Shown piece by piece: positions 2,597 to 16,630 of a stretch of 21,390 nucleotides of DNA. Source of the stretch: a virus. Each line of letters begins with the position of its first letter. Positions within the stretch are counted from its first letter, which is position 1. The translations under genes and the position numbers were made by a program. The notes below the pieces were generated by a model. It ran no database searches and was not told the DNA's origin. It was given only the letters and a program-made list of their open reading frames with translations. The stretch spans positions 1-21,390 of IMG/VR virus record IMGVR_UViG_3300046674_000376; one strand, 5' to 3'.

Positions 2597-2812
2597 AGTG
2601 CGTCCGGGACTCACTGGGACGCACTGGGACGCGCTAGGGGTTTCGGGGCATTTCCGCAGGTCAGGGGCCGTGAGAGCGCGTCCCGTGACAGGCCATCAGA
2701 TGTAGGCTGCACCGGTTTCCAAGATCGGGACGCACTTACAGCCCCCTTGACCTGCGGAAATGTCGCCCGGCGCAAGACTGACGATCCGTCACGGGACGCA
2801 CTGGGACGCACA
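2597..2812. repeat. Iteron-like cluster of 10-bp GGGACGCACT repeats
   Basis: Three copies stand directly end to end at 2606-2635 (GGGACTCACT, GGGACGCACT, GGGACGCGCT). Two more are end to end at 2793-2812, with a single copy at 2727-2736. Inverted copies are at 2597-2606 (one mismatch) and 2675-2684. The 10-base phase puts tandem copies on the same DNA face, as in arrays bound by initiator or repressor proteins. The block fills the roughly 300 bases without a confident gene between the ATPase gene and the 139-residue gene. A replication origin or control region is inferred from its position beside primase, ATPase and ssb. Confidence 0.6.
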
Positions 2813-2823
2813 CGAACCCTCAC
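2611..2823 (-). CDS. Doubtful 70-residue frame across the repeat block
   Basis: An open frame begins with GTG at 2823 and overlaps the ATPase stop in the same GTGA junction used by several true gene pairs here. That is the only positive evidence. By hand count only about 60 percent of its codons end in G or C, far below its neighbours. Its residues largely translate the repeats (RPSAS, FPQVKG and PLTCGN come from the repeats and the inverted repeat). I think the DNA repeats are the functional element and the frame is probably chance, although a coupled small protein cannot be excluded. Confidence 0.25.
   Translation of the reverse strand: MRVRVRPSASRDGSSVLRRATFPQVKGAVSASRSWKPVQPTSDGLSRDALSRPLTCGNAPKPLARPSASQ
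2649..2762. repeat. 14-bp inverted repeat inside the iteron-like block
   Basis: CATTTCCGCAGGTC at 2649-2662 is repeated exactly inverted as GACCTGCGGAAATG at 2749-2762. The arms are exactly 100 bases apart centre to centre. The core GACCTGCGG appears again at 9546-9554 upstream of the integrase gene. The function is unknown. Confidence 0.6.
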
Positions 2824-3995
2824 TGCTCGACACCCCCCGCCCCGGCCAGAGCGTGCAGCATGGCCCCCTTCGGCCCCGCCGTTGCCACGACCTCGCCCGC
2901 CTGCACGAGACGCGCCAGCGCCCGTCGGGTCACCGACGCCCTGCCAGGCACGAGATCTTCGATCGTGCGGCCGCTCAAAGGCCCCGGCGCCTGCCTCAAC
3001 GTGGCGAGCACCTTCGGCTTCCGGGCTTCGGTATCTGCCTCCTGCTTGGCGTCTGCCTCCTGATCGGCTTTCGCCTCCTCCTCCGTCTGCCGCTCGATCG
3101 GCGCGTAGAGCAGCGCCTCGACGGGTCCCGGTCCTGTGGCGTCTACGACCAGATCGGCGAACCAGAACAGCCCGGACTCGTGCGGCAACGCCTCCTTGCG
3201 GAGCTGGCCCGGCCGGTCCTTCGCGATCCTGATCCGGGAACGGCCTTTCACCCCGATACCGAACGGCTGGACGTTCTCCATCAGGTACATCACGCCGTTG
3301 AGACCGTTGAGCTTGTGGACGCCGCCGATCGCGTAACGGCCCCGGTTGTCGGTCGACTTCACAACGTGGTCGAGTGTCACGACCGCCGGGCCCGCATCTT
3401 GGAGAGGACGCAGCACCTTCCGGCCAAAGACCGCGACGTCCTTGTTGTCGTTGATGTTGAGCCCGTGCAGCGACATGCCCTCGGTGACACCATCCACCAC
3501 AGCCAGCGAGGGCCGCAGGGCCAGGATCTCGGCGAGGTCGACCATGTCCGCAAGGCCGAGCGGCTCCTCGGGGCGGACGTAGTGAAATCGCTCCAGCAGA
3601 GCGTCAGCGTCCGCGCCCATCGCCAGGAGTCGCCCGACGACACCCGCGGCCTCATCCTCGAAGTCGAGGAAGAGAACATGGTTGCCGCGGTTCAACTCCT
3701 GGATGGCGAGGATCATCGCGAACCAGGTCTTGCCCGCCTCGGACTCCGCAGCGACGGTGCTCATGCGCCCCGGGTAGAGCACACCCACCCCGTCGGCGCG
3801 CGCCCCCACAGTGGGCGTCGCGGGCTTGTGCGAGCCGTCTACAAATGTAGCCAGGTCTTGCCCGCGCCAGGATCTGCGACCGCCCTGGGTAGCCTCCTCG
3901 CCCCGCTCGTCTGGCTGGTAGCTGCTGGGCAGGATCAGCCCGACAGCACCACCCTTCGGGGACGCGTGGGGAAGCCACAGCGGTTCGTCGCTCAC
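2820..3995 (-). CDS. RecA-like AAA ATPase, probable replicative helicase (RepA type)
   Basis: 391 residues from GTG 3995, which overlaps the primase stop (GTGA). The Walker A motif is AESEAGKT at about 83-90, with Ala in place of the usual first Gly. A strand with acidic residues, HVLFLDFEDE, follows at 106-115, then LAVVDGVTEGMSLHG and VVTLDHVVKS, which fit the later strands and sensor of the RecA-like core seen in RepA/DnaB-type hexameric helicases. The C-terminal 70 residues look like a winged helix (VLATLRQAPGPLSGRTIEDL onward) after an acidic, Ala-rich linker. Its place directly after the primase argues that it unwinds DNA, or loads the machinery, for phage replication. A recombination or packaging role is less likely. 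Confidence 0.85.
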   Translation of the reverse strand: MSDEPLWLPHASPKGGAVGLILPSSYQPDERGEEATQGGRRSWRGQDLATFVDGSHKPATPTVGARADGVGVLYPGRMSTVAAESEAGKTWFAMILAIQELNRGNHVLFLDFEDEAAGVVGRLLAMGADADALLERFHYVRPEEPLGLADMVDLAEILALRPSLAVVDGVTEGMSLHGLNINDNKDVAVFGRKVLRPLQDAGPAVVTLDHVVKSTDNRGRYAIGGVHKLNGLNGVMYLMENVQPFGIGVKGRSRIRIAKDRPGQLRKEALPHESGLFWFADLVVDATGPGPVEALLYAPIERQTEEEAKADQEADAKQEADTEARKPKVLATLRQAPGPLSGRTIEDLVPGRASVTRRALARLVQAGEVVATAGPKGAMLHALAGAGGVEQ

Positions 3996-4855
3996 GCACG
4001 CACCGCCGGGTCCTCCGGGTGCGGAACCGGGGCCCACACCTGCACGAACTCGGCGTCCTTGTGTCCGGCGGCGAAGTGGTCGGCCGCGTCCTTCCCGGTC
4101 TTCGCCTGCACCACGTAGACGGTCCGGGCCAGGCCGCGCAGGGACTCGACGACAGCACGCGCGTGCTTCTCACCCTGCTCGTCCCGGTCGGCGACGATGG
4201 TGACGTCCGCACCCTCCATGAATGCCGCGTGCTCGGCGGTCCACTTCCCCGCGCCGGCCGCGTTGCAGGTGGCGGGCAGCCCGTGGTCGATGAGTGCGTG
4301 GACGTCCTTCTCGCCCTCGGCGATCCAGATGACGCGGTCCGCTTCCTTCGCGGCCAGCAGCTCGGGGAGCCGGTACGGGACCAGGGGCACGAGCCGGTTG
4401 CCCTCCTTGTCGTTGAGGGACCAGCGCCGTCCAGAGCGGGTGCTGTTGTCGGGACGCCACTGGGCGAAGCACTTGTGGTCGCACCGGGTCACGCCGTGGA
4501 TGACCGCCTTGTTCTCGTTGCGGTAGACGTACTGGGCGACACGCTTGTGGCCGCGGTCCTGGCAGGGGATCCACATGTCGTCGGCGGGCCGGTCGTGCGC
4601 CCGCTCCAGTGGCTCGTCGAACAGGTCGGCTTCGGTCCATCCGATCGCCGTGAGGAACTCGGCGTTGCCGTCGCACTTGTGGCAGTGGATGACGACGCCG
4701 CCGTTGTTCCCGCGCCGGATGGCCACGGTGCCCGGGGAGTCCCCGTCATGGCAGATACCGCGGGTGCGGAGGGCTCCGCCCTGGTAGCGGGTGGGCTCGC
4801 CCCGGTCGCGCAGGAGGTCGGCGAGCTTGTTAAAGGCGATCCCGTCGGTGGTCAC
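3992..4855 (-). CDS. DNA primase with zinc-finger and Toprim domains
   Basis: 287 residues from GTG 4855, overlapping the previous TGA (GTGA); a longer frame upstream lacks coding character. The N-terminal part has a CHC2-like zinc site with C35, H36, C58 and C61 (GICHDGDSP then VIHCHKCDG). A second Cys/His patch lies at C98, C125, H127 and C129. The Toprim core follows: IWIAEGEKD (E180) and VTIVADRDEQG (D223, D225), the acidic residues that hold catalytic metal. It is shorter than bacterial DnaG and lacks the helicase-binding domain, which suits a phage primase acting with the separate ATPase encoded next to it. It should lay RNA primers for phage DNA synthesis. Confidence 0.9.
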   Translation of the reverse strand: MTTDGIAFNKLADLLRDRGEPTRYQGGALRTRGICHDGDSPGTVAIRRGNNGGVVIHCHKCDGNAEFLTAIGWTEADLFDEPLERAHDRPADDMWIPCQDRGHKRVAQYVYRNENKAVIHGVTRCDHKCFAQWRPDNSTRSGRRWSLNDKEGNRLVPLVPYRLPELLAAKEADRVIWIAEGEKDVHALIDHGLPATCNAAGAGKWTAEHAAFMEGADVTIVADRDEQGEKHARAVVESLRGLARTVYVVQAKTGKDAADHFAAGHKDAEFVQVWAPVPHPEDPAVRA

Positions 4856-6976: not shown

Positions 6977-7930
6977 GTGGCCGGCGTGACTCAGGACCCA
7001 GAAGCGTGGACCAAGCTTGGCCAGGCGTTCCGCGAGAGCAGGGAGGCGAGGGGGAGTAGCCGCAAGGCGTTGGCCGAAATGGCTGGCGTGTCAGAGAAGA
7101 GCATTCAGGTCGCGGAAGAGGGGCGGGTTCCCCGAGGTCGCATGCCGCAGTCCCTTGCCAGAATCGCAGGTGCCCTTGGGTGGCCCCCGGGCGCGGTGAC
7201 TGACATTCTCTCGGGTGCTGAGCCTGGAGTCGTACTCATGCAGCCGAGCCTCTTTGACTCGGTCGAGCGTGACCAGAAAGAGGGGCGTGTCACCCAGCAG
7301 GCGGATAGCGCACCGACGATGCCGACGCGGGTTGGATTTCGAGATCTCGAACTGATGGAGTCCTCAATCCTCGCCCAAGACACTTTCATGCGGCAGATGA
7401 AGCGTTACCGAAAAAAGCAAGGGGTGTCGCTTGCTGAGGTGGCGCGCTCGATCGCTGAACTGCAAGGCGACCTGCCGCCAGGCGAGTCCCTCGGGGTGGC
7501 TGAACTGGAGAAGCTTGAGAACGGCACGCGACTGCCGAAGGGGGCGGAAGGAGAACTCATCGCGAATGCCCTCGGGACAACGGTTGAGTGGCTCCTAGGC
7601 TCAACGTTCATGGATGGCGTGCCGGAGTACCTCAAGGAACCGCCCACAGATGAGGAATTGCAGGCCGAGGCTAAAGCCATGGAACAGCGAATGGTCCGCG
7701 TCGGCATGCGCGTCAACGGGGCGCGAAATCAATACGCCATGGCACGAGAGAGGGAAGACGAAGCCCGACGCCAAGCTAGCTGGGCGCAAGCGATCCTCGA
7801 AAACGCGGCGAGCGAGCAGCGCAAGCTTGAGCAGCAGTATCAATACTTGCTCGGGAGGATCGACTCGATCCGTGCAGCGAAGGGCGAAGATCTGGTTGTC
7901 CAGGTGCACCCCGTTTATGGAGACGATTAG
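6977..7930 (+). CDS. Immunity repressor with two XRE helix-turn-helix domains
   Basis: 317 residues. GTG 6977 is chosen because GGAGGG stands six bases before it; the open frame continues upstream only through the control region. Two separate HTH domains are visible: residues 11-80 (WTKLGQAFRESREARG, KALAEMAGVSEKSIQVAEEG) and 137-210 (MRQMKRYRKKQGVSLAEVA, ELEKLENGTRLP, ALGTTVEWLLG). A long charged helix at 225-300 probably forms a coiled coil that joins subunits. There is no S24 peptidase domain, so RecA-triggered self-cleavage is not expected. It faces the Cro-like gene across shared operators and converges on the integrase, the usual place of a phage maintenance repressor. GC at third positions looks lower than in its neighbours. 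Confidence 0.8.
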   Translation: MAGVTQDPEAWTKLGQAFRESREARGSSRKALAEMAGVSEKSIQVAEEGRVPRGRMPQSLARIAGALGWPPGAVTDILSGAEPGVVLMQPSLFDSVERDQKEGRVTQQADSAPTMPTRVGFRDLELMESSILAQDTFMRQMKRYRKKQGVSLAEVARSIAELQGDLPPGESLGVAELEKLENGTRLPKGAEGELIANALGTTVEWLLGSTFMDGVPEYLKEPPTDEELQAEAKAMEQRMVRVGMRVNGARNQYAMAREREDEARRQASWAQAILENAASEQRKLEQQYQYLLGRIDSIRAAKGEDLVVQVHPVYGDD

Positions 7931-9423
7931 GCGTGAGTGGCGCCGCGCTTCCACTCGAACTGCACCGCGTCGTAGTCGAAGTACCCGCCGTCAGGCATCC
8001 GCCCCGACCGCGGCTTCACCAGCGTGACGACGAGCGCCGCCCGCAGCACGTTGCGCTTCTGCTCCAGCTCCAGTGCCTTCCACGCCTTCCGCACGTCCGG
8101 CGCACCCACCAGGCCGACGAGCGGATCCACCGTCGCCGCGCGCGCCAACTGCCTCGTCACGCCCTCCAACTGGGCGCGGGCCGTGTCGGTGCCCTTCGTG
8201 AACTGCACCATGTCGATCTTCCCAGCACCGAACATGCCCGCCAGGTCGGTCATCCGCCGGCGAATCTGCTCACTCTCCGCCTGCAGCCCGGCGACGTCCA
8301 CATCGTCGGGGCCGGGCAGGAGCAGATCCTCCGCGTCGTCCCGTGACAGCCGCTCGACGATGGTGTCCTCAACGTACTGGTCAACGATCTCCGCACGCCG
8401 GCCGCCGCCGTGTCCGGTCGGGCACTTGTAGCTCGGGTACTGCCGTCCGCCGGACTGGGTCACCGTCATTCCGTGGCCGCACCCCTCGCGGCCGCACAGG
8501 TACAGCAGCGATCCGACCCACCGAGGCTGTGCGCCACGGTTCGAGACGCGCGAGGGATCGGCCAGGATCGCCACGACGGCCCTGAACTTCTCCTCCGGGA
8601 CGATCGGCTCCCACAGTCCGCGCCCGACCTCCTCGTCCTTGTACACGGCGATCCCGGCGTTCCTCGGGCGCCTGAGCATCGCCCGCAGATCCGTGTGGCT
8701 GATCGCGTTGCCGCGAGGCGTGGTGAGCCCCTTGTCCGCGGCCCACTTCACGCACGAACGGACGGACCCGCCCGACAGCAGCGTGTCCGTCCAGTGCAGG
8801 ACGGCCGCGGCCTCCTCGGGCATGGGCTTGGTCATGTCGAGGACGGGCACCTCGACTTCCTCGCCCGTCGTCCGGTCGGTCTTCTTCTTCGTCTCGTCGG
8901 TGGGCACGCCCCAGCCGAACGGGCGGATCCCGCCGGCCCACTCGCCGGCCATGGCCTTCTGCTGGCGGGCGCGGGCGACGCGGTGGCCCTTGTGCTCGGA
9001 CTCCTGGCGGGCGACGGCGCCGAGGATCCGTGCGGTCATCCGCCCGGACGGCGTGGCGAGGTCGACGGTCCCGGCCTGCACGGTGTGTGTGGAGACGCCG
9101 CGGGTCTCGGACAGGGCGATGTACTTCTCCAGCTCGGTGGGCGAGCGGTGCAGCCGGTCGGTGTGCCAGGCGATGACGACGGTGGCTGTGCCCTCTTCCA
9201 GGTCGTCGAGCATCCGCGAGTAGTCCTTGCGCTTTTTCCCGGAGTACGCGGAGACGTCGTTGTCGACGTACACCTCGACGACGTCCCAGCCGTTGCGTTC
9301 CGCGAGGGCCTCGCAGTCCTGGCGCTGCCGCTCGACTCCGAGGCCGGCGCCCGTGCGGTCCTGCGAGATCCGGCAGTAGATGACGGCGCGCGTCCGGCTG
9401 ACAGCCGTCTGGGTGGTCTTCAT
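7927..9423 (-). CDS. int: Large serine integrase
   Basis: 498 residues from ATG 9423; the frame could extend to GTG 9495, but that part overlaps the candidate attP and has no ribosome site. The resolvase domain begins RAVIYCRISQDRTGAGLGVE, with the nucleophile at Ser20 and its arginine at 18. It goes on through AWHTDRLHRSPTELEKYI and ARILGAVARQESEHKG. A recombinase domain follows (LRRPRNAGIAVYKDEE, then EEKFRAVVAIL), then a zinc ribbon at about 305-345 (CGREGCG and KCPTGHG, with His as likely fourth ligand). The last 130 residues include a coiled coil (LQAESEQIRRRMTDLAG). It should join attP to a host attB without other proteins. Its TAA overlaps the repressor TAG in the opposite direction. 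Confidence 0.95.
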   Translation of the reverse strand: MKTTQTAVSRTRAVIYCRISQDRTGAGLGVERQRQDCEALAERNGWDVVEVYVDNDVSAYSGKKRKDYSRMLDDLEEGTATVVIAWHTDRLHRSPTELEKYIALSETRGVSTHTVQAGTVDLATPSGRMTARILGAVARQESEHKGHRVARARQQKAMAGEWAGGIRPFGWGVPTDETKKKTDRTTGEEVEVPVLDMTKPMPEEAAAVLHWTDTLLSGGSVRSCVKWAADKGLTTPRGNAISHTDLRAMLRRPRNAGIAVYKDEEVGRGLWEPIVPEEKFRAVVAILADPSRVSNRGAQPRWVGSLLYLCGREGCGHGMTVTQSGGRQYPSYKCPTGHGGGRRAEIVDQYVEDTIVERLSRDDAEDLLLPGPDDVDVAGLQAESEQIRRRMTDLAGMFGAGKIDMVQFTKGTDTARAQLEGVTRQLARAATVDPLVGLVGAPDVRKAWKALELEQKRNVLRAALVVTLVKPRSGRMPDGGYFDYDAVQFEWKRGATHA

Positions 9424-9442
9424 GTCCTGAGTGTCGCTCAGC

Positions 9443-9496
9443 AGTGGTGTCACTGTCTCAGGTTCGGGAACCCCAATATGGCTTTGTGCCACCACT
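9443..9496. other. Candidate attP site
   Basis: AGTGGTGTCAC (9443-9453) is mirrored by GTGCCACCACT (9486-9496) with one mismatch. This gives a 54-base imperfect dyad that ends 20 bases upstream of the integrase ATG. A second small dyad, GGTTC-GG-GAACC (9461-9472), is near the centre. Serine-integrase attP sites are about 50 bp, imperfectly symmetric and usually beside int, so size and place fit. The crossover dinucleotide cannot be read without attB, attL or attR. Confidence 0.45.
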
Positions 9497-10395: not shown

Positions 10396-10632
10396 ATGGA
10401 CTGGAAGCCGGACATCCCGCGATGGCAGCAGGTGTACGAGATCATCGAGGCGCGCATCGCAGACGGCACGTATGCGCCGGGCGCGCAGCTGCCGGGCGTC
10501 CTCGCCCTCCACGCCGAGTTCGGCATCGCGCAGATGACCGCGCGCCGGGTGCTCTCCGAGCTGAGGGACGCCGGCCTGGCGCAGATGCAGCCGGGCATCG
10601 GCACGTTCGTGACCGAGCTGCCCAAGCCGTAG
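10396..10632 (+). CDS. Short GntR-type winged-helix regulator
   Basis: 78 residues from ATG 10396. The typical GntR DNA-binding domain fills the whole protein: WQQVYEIIEARIADGTYAPG, QLPGVLALHAEFGIAQMTA, RRVLSELRDAGLAQMQPGIG. No effector or dimerisation domain follows, unlike full-length GntR proteins of more than 200 residues. An extension back to GTG 10342 is possible, but it runs through likely promoter DNA. No ribosome site precedes ATG 10396. TAGCGT (10383-10388) lies seven bases before it, so a leaderless transcript is possible. It probably represses itself and the divergent zinc-protein operon. Two strong hairpins follow it. Confidence 0.85.
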   Translation: MDWKPDIPRWQQVYEIIEARIADGTYAPGAQLPGVLALHAEFGIAQMTARRVLSELRDAGLAQMQPGIGTFVTELPKP

Positions 10633-10657
10633 GGGTACTCACGATCTGAGTACCCCT
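10631..10657 (+). terminator. Perfect hairpin overlapping the GntR stop codon
   Basis: AGGGGTACTCA and TGAGTACCCCT form an 11-base perfect stem over the loop CGATC, and its first bases overlap the TAG of the GntR gene. It would end plus-strand transcription, though it lacks a T-run. A regulatory palindrome is the alternative. Confidence 0.6.
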
Positions 10658-10664
10658 GGACGCA

Positions 10665-10716
10665 CGAAAGCGGCCCCGCCCTCCCACGTGGGGAGAGCGA
10701 GGCCGCTCGGCTTTCG
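10665..10716. terminator. Bidirectional terminator between GntR gene and lysis genes
   Basis: A long stem can form from CGAAAG/CTTTCG (outer), CGGCC/GGCCG (middle) and CTCCC/GGGAG (inner), with small bulges. The A-rich and T-rich outer ends suit termination from either side. It lies between the convergent GntR gene and the last lysis-cassette gene. Confidence 0.65.
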
Positions 10717-14167: not shown

Positions 14168-16630
14168 TCAGTAGGCGAGCCGGGTCGTGGACCCAAGGAC
14201 GGCATAGGTCGCGTCGTCCAGGACCCAGACGCTGTCGGTGACCGACGCCGAGGTGTGGAACTGGATGACGTGCGACCGGTCCTTGAGCGTCTCGGTGTAG
14301 CCCTCGACGGTGGCGCGGACGGACGACGCCGGCGCCTGCGCGGGCATCGAGGTGACGGTGAAGTAGCTGGAGACGTCGGCGTCGAGGATGTCGAGGTAGG
14401 CGGCCAGGGTGTACGCCTCGACGACCACCTCGCGCATCTCGGGCATGGGGTTGGCGTAGCGGGACACCAGCCAGTACGCCGCGTCGAGCACGCTGTTGTC
14501 GGAGGTCTTGATGACGTCGAGCTGCTGCGGATACTCGCCGAACGCCAGGACTGACGAGGGCGCGGTGACCTTCTGCGTGGCGCCGCCGGGCCGCGAGGCC
14601 TCGACGGAGTTGATCAGCTTCTGGTCGTCGTCCGCGTAGTTGCTGCCCGGCTCCAGATCGGCGTAGGCGATCGTGAAAACTTCCGTGCTCGGGTCGGGGT
14701 TGTAGCGCAGGTCGCGGGACTGATAGGCGAGCCCGTAGAAGTCACGCTCGGCGTAGAGCTTGCCCGACTCGGTGGACTCGACCTCCCGCATGCGCGCGAC
14801 GACGCCGGTGCCGCCGGGCCCCTGTGAGGCGATCGCGTCGTGTGTGGTGCCCAGGATCGTCACCGACGGGATGCCGGCATAGCGGGCCAGCCGCTGCATC
14901 CGAACGTCCGCGTCCTCGCCAGAGAAGCCCGAGGTCGCGGCCTGGTAGTGGGACGGTGAGATGGTCGCGCCGATGCTGCCGGTGACCGAGGTGACCGCGA
15001 CGTGGGCGATCTGCCCGGAGAACAGCCGGGCCCCGCGATATCCGCCGATGTGCATCGTGCGCAGGCCGAACATGTCGACCACGCTGCTCGTGAAACTGGA
15101 GGCGACGCCGTCCACGTAGAGCTGCTTGGTGGGGTAGCCGTCGTGCACGACGTGATGCCAGGCCCCGTCGTTCAAGGCGGCCCCACCCGAGGCGTAGACG
15201 GTGAGCGTGCCACCACTGTCGGTGTGCTCGATGGTGAGGACACCGCTGGCATTCAGGGCGTAGACGATCTGGTGATCGAGGCCCGGCTCGAACATCCCCA
15301 GGATCGCGCGCGACACCGTCGTCGTCTTGATCCAGAACTCGACGGTCTGCCAGTACGTCGTCGAGTCGGCCGCGAACTGGGCGCCCAAGTCGCCCGTCAA
15401 GTACTTGCCCGCGCTGGCGCTGGCAGGGGTGAACGTGACCGAGCTATCGCCCGTGTCCGCGAGCCCGTCCGTGCCGAACTCCAGCGTTCCGCCGGCGCCG
15501 ACCTGGGTGACGGCGAGCGCCCCGCTTCCTCGCCCGGACAGGTCGCCAGCCGCCGTCGAGCCGGACGGCTCGGTGAGCGGGTAGTACGCGGACACGAAGT
15601 CCGTGACGCCCGGCACGTCCTGCGTGAGGATCTCGCAGGCGAGCATGCTCTTGAGGACGGGCAGTCGGTTGAGCCGCTTGAACAGATCGGTGCACGAGAT
15701 CCGCACCGTGGAGAGCAGGCCTTCCCACTCGATGGGCCATTCGTTGACCATGCCGTAGAAGCGGGGCCGGACCTCGGCGCCGATCAGCTTCCACTCGATG
15801 TAGTCGGCCGTGCCGCCCGTGCGGGTGGTCGGGAAATCGACGGCGTGAGTCTGCGAGGTGACCCACGCAGGGGTGGCCAGGGTTCGGCGGGTCGTCCACT
15901 CCCAGCCGTCGCCGGATGTCTCCCAGTACACGGTCCCGCCGGACTCCCGCACCCGCAGCCACGCGTGGTCGATCGCGCTGTACGTGAGGTTGGTCGGGGC
16001 CCCGTCGGCGAACCCGGTCTGCGACTGAGCACTGATCACACCGGTGCCCGCGTCGTAGCGCCAGCCGATGCGCGTACCCGAGGTGGTCGAGGTGACCCAC
16101 ATCGAGGCCGCGCAGTTGCTGCTTCCGTTGAGCGCGGGCACCGCGGCGAGCTTCGCCGTCAGCTTGCTACCCACCAGATTCCAGGTGCGGGCGCTGGTGA
16201 AGTTGGTGTCGACGCCGGGAGCCATGGGAATGCGCAGTCGGCTGTCGCTGGTCTCGATGGCGGGGCCGGTGTTCGTCGTCCACAGGGTGGAGTCGACGCG
16301 CTGGTCGTCGAACGCGTCGCCCAGCATGGCCATCGGGTACGGCGCCGACCCGGACCGCGTGGGCATCACGGCCTGCGAGATCCGGATCGGGGCGTTGCGC
16401 CGCACGAACGGGTAGTACGGCGAGCTGCTGTTGCCCGGCGTGAACCGTCCGTCCTGGTTGTCGAGGCTCAGCGTCGCCGTGCCGGCCTGCGTCTCGGAGC
16501 GCTCGTCGGAGGCGCCCCGGGCGATGACGACTCCGATCGTGTCGTCGGAGTAGGGGCTGATGTCCGTCCAGGTGATGGTGGACGGCAGCTGTACGAGACC
16601 GCCCCAGCCCACCTCTACGAGCACGGGCAT
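14168..16630 (-). CDS. Minor tail protein with LamG-like domain (tail tip)
   Basis: 820 residues from ATG 16630, four bases after the tape-measure stop, with a GGGGGGTGAG ribosome site. The N-terminal 90 residues (TWTDISPYSDDTIGVVIARG, then GTATLSLDNQDGRFTPGN) resemble the start of actinophage tail tip proteins. A first beta-sandwich follows at about 110-275 (DAFDDQRVDSTLWTT, WLRVRESGGTVYWETSGDG). At 345-550 is a LamG/concanavalin-like domain (AYYPLTEPSGSTAAGDLSG, YWQTVEFWIKTT, GAWHHVVHDG, KQLYVDGVASS). The C-terminal 270 residues look like a tail hub. As the only large gene after the tape measure, it may combine the distal-tail and tail-lysin positions and bind host glycans. Confidence 0.88.
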   Translation of the reverse strand: MPVLVEVGWGGLVQLPSTITWTDISPYSDDTIGVVIARGASDERSETQAGTATLSLDNQDGRFTPGNSSSPYYPFVRRNAPIRISQAVMPTRSGSAPYPMAMLGDAFDDQRVDSTLWTTNTGPAIETSDSRLRIPMAPGVDTNFTSARTWNLVGSKLTAKLAAVPALNGSSNCAASMWVTSTTSGTRIGWRYDAGTGVISAQSQTGFADGAPTNLTYSAIDHAWLRVRESGGTVYWETSGDGWEWTTRRTLATPAWVTSQTHAVDFPTTRTGGTADYIEWKLIGAEVRPRFYGMVNEWPIEWEGLLSTVRISCTDLFKRLNRLPVLKSMLACEILTQDVPGVTDFVSAYYPLTEPSGSTAAGDLSGRGSGALAVTQVGAGGTLEFGTDGLADTGDSSVTFTPASASAGKYLTGDLGAQFAADSTTYWQTVEFWIKTTTVSRAILGMFEPGLDHQIVYALNASGVLTIEHTDSGGTLTVYASGGAALNDGAWHHVVHDGYPTKQLYVDGVASSFTSSVVDMFGLRTMHIGGYRGARLFSGQIAHVAVTSVTGSIGATISPSHYQAATSGFSGEDADVRMQRLARYAGIPSVTILGTTHDAIASQGPGGTGVVARMREVESTESGKLYAERDFYGLAYQSRDLRYNPDPSTEVFTIAYADLEPGSNYADDDQKLINSVEASRPGGATQKVTAPSSVLAFGEYPQQLDVIKTSDNSVLDAAYWLVSRYANPMPEMREVVVEAYTLAAYLDILDADVSSYFTVTSMPAQAPASSVRATVEGYTETLKDRSHVIQFHTSASVTDSVWVLDDATYAVLGSTTRLAY

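Follow-up and report, generated by a model that had tools for sequence, protein, structure and literature searches.

What does a short stretch of repeats between two viral genes do, and which protein reads it? This question is raised by an IMG/VR virus record of 21,390 bases, whose completeness is unknown and which is referred to as the window in the following. Its named genes, all on the minus strand, encode a large serine integrase (7927–9495, from the gene scan of the window), an amidase, a single-strand DNA-binding protein (SSB; 1076–1642, Pfam SSB, E 7.6e-30), a Toprim (DnaG-type) primase (3992–4855, Pfam Toprim_2/3) and a 391-residue RecA/KaiC-fold ATPase with a C-terminal winged helix (2820–3995, Pfam AAA_25, E 5.5e-9), a gene set that fits a temperate Streptomyces-type phage. 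Read along the minus strand, the primase (4855 to 3992) is followed by the ATPase, which starts with a GTG at 3995 that overlaps the primase stop as GTGA and ends with its stop at 2820, then by the repeat block and the next gene (2096–2515). This gene likely starts with the ATG at 2515 behind an AAAGGA ribosome site, which we preferred over a GTG at 2614 inside the array, so that the repeats occupy a 304-bp gap between the ATPase stop and the next gene. Between the latter and SSB lies a small protein (1701–2042) with a DUF3846 match slightly under the Pfam cut-off. A sequence-only reading had left two options for the repeats, a phage replication origin or the binding array of a regulator encoded elsewhere in the genome.

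The repeat unit is the decamer GGGACGCACT, or AGTGCGTCCC in its coding-strand form. Allowing for at most one mismatch, an inverted copy (2597–2606, minus) abuts three direct copies that stand end to end and form the core of the array (2606–2635, plus; starts at 2606, 2616 and 2626). These are followed by a second inverted copy (2675–2684, minus), a single direct copy (2727–2736, plus) and an end-to-end direct pair on the ATPase-proximal side (2793–2812, plus; starts at 2793 and 2803). Eight of the nine matches in the whole window fall within 2597–2812, and this clustering is far above chance expectation: the top 8-mer among the 330 nt that follow the ATPase has five copies, versus 1.95 on average and at most 3 in 200 dinucleotide shuffles. 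With up to two mismatches, the whole window contains 29 matches versus 41 expected; as there is no overall excess, the signal lies in the clustering.

Next to these copies is a hairpin (2547–2595), whose arms are an inverted pair of degenerate decamers (2552–2561, minus; 2581–2590, plus) and whose tip reads CCCC-TTTA-GGGG. Folded as single-stranded DNA, it reaches -23.5 kcal/mol (z -6.6), and given the two degenerate copies in its arms, the block spans about 2547–2812. Within it, an exact 15-bp inverted pair, CATTTCCGCAGGTCA (2649–2663) and TGACCTGCGGAAATG (2748–2762), sits in imperfect 37-nt arms and carries a second element, TGACCTGCGNAAA, which is found in other arrays, too. Counted as TGACCTGC, this type of element occurs in 15 of 113 loci versus 4.4 expected; since the arrays at these loci have different decamers, a second, conserved binding factor may exist.

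We found no clear AT-rich opening element in the block and no Rfam match. There are also no DnaA boxes (TTGTCCACA) in the region, which sets it apart from a DnaA-dependent iteron origin; the lone match with one mismatch in the window is at 16276. For an open reading frame at 2611–2823, neither Pfam nor PHROG gave a match, and tblastn found none in related loci. The GC skew changes sign near 2700, yet swings of similar size near 600 and 4300 make this non-diagnostic. Most of what the sequence-only reading had described was thus confirmed, namely about eight decamers with two inverted, three of them end to end and two more likewise, the poor coding character of the 2611–2823 frame, and the vicinity of ATPase, primase and ssb genes. 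Its bordering 47-bp dyad held as well and maps to the hairpin at 2547–2595, while its 14-bp inverted repeat held but is an exact repeat of 15 bp.

A nucleotide search with the array returned no phage match at low stringency, and an exact 19-mer was absent from viral contigs; as the repeats apparently diverge fast, relatives were sought via protein sequences. A search of viral contigs with the ATPase alone found nothing, and relatives were found through the primase and then through an ATPase alignment. The resulting comparison set, gathered from viral contigs, GTDB genomes and one plasmid, comprises 112 non-identical ATPase homologue loci from phages, plasmids and actinobacterial chromosomes. 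The underlying genome survey is a sample (for instance, 9/395 genomes in the Streptomyces family, 33/295 and 26/301 in two other families).

Scoring as an array any 8-mer with at least four copies in a 400-nt stretch at the 3' end of the ATPase gene, we found one in 81 of the 112 loci, and in 78 of these none of 100 dinucleotide shuffles reached it. The same test gave 3/112 inside the gene and 0/107 at 0.7–1.1 kb downstream. Most of the 31 loci without an array by this test either represent distant homologues or carry their array within the 3' end of the gene. By contrast, the genes behind the array vary among relatives, with SSB in L023, for instance, and other proteins elsewhere. The sequence-only reading had named relatives that lack the repeats while keeping an intact protein in the 2611–2823 frame as its refutation, and had suggested searching for tandem decamers next to ATPase and primase genes. 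The refutation did not materialize: loci with a related ATPase keep an array, often of other sequence, and no relative of a protein in the 2611–2823 frame turned up. The array sequence varies between lineages.

Across loci, the consensus units are decamers with a CCC end. Most Streptomyces elements have ACCTCGTCCC, while the window shares AGTGCGTCCC with L046, L106 and L108; further units are AGTGGGTCCC (L105), AGTGTGTCCC (L110), AGTGGTTCCC (L112, L114), ACTGGGTCCC (L029), CCGTGTCCC (L030, L033, L094), CCGGTTCCC (L039) and ACCTCGCCCC (L037, L044, L080). Despite these changes, the layout recurs: direct copies stand end to end, an inverted copy abuts them, and a short spacer leads to a hairpin with an iteron on each arm and a CTTTAG-, TTATAG- or TTAAG-like tip. 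The arrangement of three direct copies and one inverted copy seen in the window is likewise found in many relatives. Convergent iteron pairs within 26 nt, typically around the tip, are present in 76 of 82 loci; 64 of the 82 have divergent pairs. As the local iteron is present on both arms, the hairpin can change in sequence without losing its stem.

Not all members of the phage lineage have the array. In most sibling phages related through their primase (L004–L020), the ATPase slot is occupied by a DUF3987 protein and such an array is missing, as expected for a swapped cassette, whereas L009 and L010 have an ATPase of another subfamily that is directly followed by an array of other sequence, TCTCGTCA. 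In two siblings, other slot proteins come with other repeats at the same place, namely a TGACAGAAC array of six copies after DUF3987 in L018 (6661–6900) and a GGGGGGAC(A) array of nine copies after another slot protein in L019 (7128–7200), so that array and slot protein seem to be exchanged together. As a separate observation, L004 has an AT-rich, dyad-rich stretch (TTGATTACTTACAG...AGTAATTATTACTCTCTGTAATCA; 10559–10690) directly after its DUF3987 gene in a GC-rich genome, and the same element is found in L006, L011, L012, L013, L015, L017 and L020; it is conceivable that it represents a different type of origin.

If array and ATPase belong together, the reader of the array might be part of the ATPase itself. 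Its core is assigned to RecA/RAD51/KaiC proteins by profile, with AAA_25/KaiC as the sole Pfam family, and the predicted AlphaFold2 model (pLDDT 88) shows a KaiC-like core with a Z score of about 20. The C-terminal domain (2820–3110, minus), modelled alone, is predicted with a pLDDT of 90, and its Foldseek matches are mostly winged-helix proteins. We tested each sufficiently filled alignment column (about 300) against each iteron base, using manually called decamers from 43 representatives, which had been collapsed at a core identity above 70% with identical decamer. The best columns all fall in the winged helix: 293 with base 4, 296 with base 5, 307 with base 6 and 303 with base 7. In the window, these HMM columns carry R, E, R and A, respectively, and lie on helices a2 and a3. 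Arg293 goes with G4 (15/16 vs 6/27, Fisher P 4.9e-6) and Arg307 with G6 (27/28 vs 6/15, Fisher P 7.5e-5), and the decamer covaries far less with the core of the ATPase.

A concern with such an analysis is that decamers and helices had been compared by eye ahead of the first formal test, and that the P values account for shared ancestry only in part. The signal for bases 4–6 remains after dropping 13 ambiguous loci, and automated decamer calling retains columns 293, 296 and 307 for these bases. As it loses the signal for base 7, we make no claim for column 303. The better control for ancestry is a comparison of close pairs: among disjoint closest-relative pairs that differ at the respective base, concordant and discordant cases number 17:1 for base 5, 8:0 for base 6 and 8:2 for base 4. 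We therefore propose the pairs Arg–G4, Glu–C5 and Arg–G6, with which the window, having R, E and R for G, C and G, agrees. The window and L046 share both the decamer and the residues R, E and R, although their ATPases are only 35–38% identical. In L112, whose decamer is AGTGGTTCCC, the three columns carry R, R and V. Exceptions to the code are L034, L094, L044 and L102. In the absence of binding data, recognition of the decamer by the winged helix is strongly inferred from this covariation.

The company that the ATPase keeps is that of a replication protein. Its gene overlaps that of a Toprim primase in the window and is fused to one in L037, while in L022 and L046 it is found beside or fused to Prim-Pol, a primase unrelated to Toprim; likewise, the nearest viral structures are Prim-Pol/helicase (primase-helicase) proteins. 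The ATPase with its own array is also present on a 7.9-kb Streptomyces plasmid (L021), and on the Kineococcus plasmid pKRAD02, GGGAACCACC repeats lie within the 3' end of the gene. Among isolated phages, Dagobah (ACCGGTTC, nine copies), MinS1 (CCTCGTCC, nine) and P8625 (TATCGGCA, seven) show the same arrangement, which is absent from KimJongPhill. In the Streptomyces phage Dagobah (L149, about 3690–3870), a ACCGGTTCA array enters the 3' end of a 'RadB-like' gene, where its translation yields EPVGEPV repeats, and is accompanied by a hairpin with a TTTAG tip and two CTGACCTGC copies; the word 'iteron' does not occur in the Dagobah genome paper. In the Verrucomicrobia phage P8625 (L153, 3476–3590), CTATCGGCA repeats directly follow the primase/helicase gene at the genome end, which extends the arrangement beyond actinobacteria. 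We did not find it described in the open-licence literature that we searched, although earlier work in subscription journals could exist.

In our view, the region 2547–2812 is in all likelihood a phage replication origin that is read by the C-terminal winged helix of the adjacent ATPase, an inference that has not been subjected to a bench test. The origin option of the sequence-only reading is thus well supported, because the array accompanies the ATPase at most of its loci, a primase keeps it company in the loci examined and the winged helix covaries with the repeats; replication activity itself is only inferred. The same is true for the putative role of the ATPase as a replicative helicase that loads itself at the array, for which there is no helicase or replication assay. 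As a ring-forming helicase of the RecA/KaiC type with a fused winged helix, it would bind the end-to-end decamers through helices a2 and a3 of several subunits, a step strongly suggested by the covariation. More speculatively, direct and inverted copies would set ATPase rings face to face around the hairpin, as judged from the conserved layout, and ATP hydrolysis would then open the duplex; opening, or else strand start and priming, would likely take place at the hairpin tip. Finally, as inferred from gene order and fusions, the co-translated Toprim primase would prime the exposed strands together with the phage SSB. With an initiator that carries its own site reader and a site that adjoins its gene, the pair would travel as one cassette and change its specificity jointly.

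The alternative that survives best is an operator, through which the winged helix of the ATPase or another phage protein would regulate downstream transcription or end it at the hairpin. In its favor, the array sits between two genes, and the hairpin at 2547–2595 looks like a strong terminator stem. However, the downstream genes vary between relatives while the array stays with the ATPase, and the many end-to-end and inverted copies around a tip are more elaborate than a typical operator. Moreover, the hairpin has neither a sigma-70 promoter-like site nor a T-tract, and the sole terminator-like site (2509–2523) is on the opposite strand. We therefore regard a mere operator as unlikely, although a dual role as origin and operator cannot be excluded.

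A second alternative is that a separate protein, be it a host factor or an early phage protein, reads the array, and that the ATPase merely gains from its proximity. The TGACCTGC element shared by arrays with different decamers would fit a second binder, but the decamer itself covaries best with the winged helix of the ATPase, and no DnaA box is available in the region. Furthermore, no replication-initiator family such as a RepC-like separate iteron binder was detected among the window ORFs scanned, albeit in a possibly incomplete record. We consider this alternative very improbable, and the regulator encoded elsewhere is not supported, since the best candidate reader is encoded immediately beside the array. 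Equally improbable is a parS-like partition site or a DNA-transfer site like clt, where the hexameric ATPase TraB of Streptomyces plasmids reads 8-bp repeats with helix a3 of its C-terminal winged helix (PMC3583192, citing Vogelmann et al.): despite this similar logic, the ATPase core is RecA/KaiC-like and not an FtsK/SpoIIIE translocase, no FtsK, ParA/ParB or relaxase domain was found in the window ORFs scanned, and the recurrent partner of the ATPase is a primase.

The origin reading has precedents in several known systems. In SaPI Rep and SCCmec Cch2 of Staphylococcus, the C-terminal domain of an initiator helicase reads short iterons that immediately follow the helicase gene (PMC7581432). 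Likewise, the array described here lies directly 3' of the putative helicase gene, and the C-terminal domain appears to set iteron specificity, as judged by covariation only and not biochemically. The cores are different, however: Cch is related to SaPIbov1 Rep with DUF927, and Cch2 and SaPI5 Rep have Primase_Cterm/D5_N, whereas the window ATPase has neither and is RecA/KaiC-like (AAA_25), with the primase usually a separate gene. By analogy, the ATPase may also work like P4 alpha (PMC4234260), with which it shares the combination of Toprim primase, helicase and a winged helix that binds repeats (here inferred from covariation only), all fused in L037. The helicase core of P4 alpha belongs to superfamily 3; no such core was found in the window ATPase. 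By core fold, the ATPase stands outside both families, even if it may work in a comparable way.

Similarities extend to RSF1010 oriV, with its RepA helicase, RepC iteron binder and RepB' primase with ssi hairpins, in that a ring helicase (predicted for the window), a separate primase, iterons and an adjoining hairpin come together. In RSF1010, however, a separate RepC reads the iterons (PMC4234260), whereas the reader in the window appears to be fused to the ATPase. RSF1010 RepA is not among the closest structures listed for the RecA/KaiC fold of the ATPase, which does not exclude it. The pRN1 protein ORF904 has a C-terminal winged helix and a stem-loop origin 3' of its gene (PMC4234260), but it combines Prim-Pol with superfamily 3, and pRN1 has no iterons. 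Lastly, RepA of the Streptomyces theta plasmid pWTY27 binds TTCCCAC/GTGGGAAC repeats of 7–8 bp that lie within a long dyad (PMC3583192), a replicon type with short repeats and a dyad as in the window; its iterons (about 338–606), however, lie outside repAB on a separate fragment (321–620), apparently before the rep genes.

A bolder reading, which we consider likely, is that these loci belong to a class of replicons that is widespread among phages, plasmids and integrated elements and has so far gone undescribed. In this class, the origin reader would be part of a RecA/KaiC-type helicase and follow a nearly readable code (residues 293, 296 and 307 to bases 4, 5 and 6). If true, helicase and origin shift their specificity together and thereby create replicon compatibility groups. 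The sequence alone would then predict the origin and initiator of many actinobacterial phages, small plasmids and integrated elements that lack an annotation of their replication, and the code would also predict which origins cross-react. An 'AAA family ATPase' of unknown role would become a candidate for an initiator helicase, with a residue-to-base code that can be tested. For Streptomyces vectors, the system could yield compact, orthogonal origin–initiator pairs. Finally, a winged helix that is fused to a helicase and reads the origin seems to have arisen not only on superfamily 3 and related cores, but on a RecA/KaiC-type core, too.
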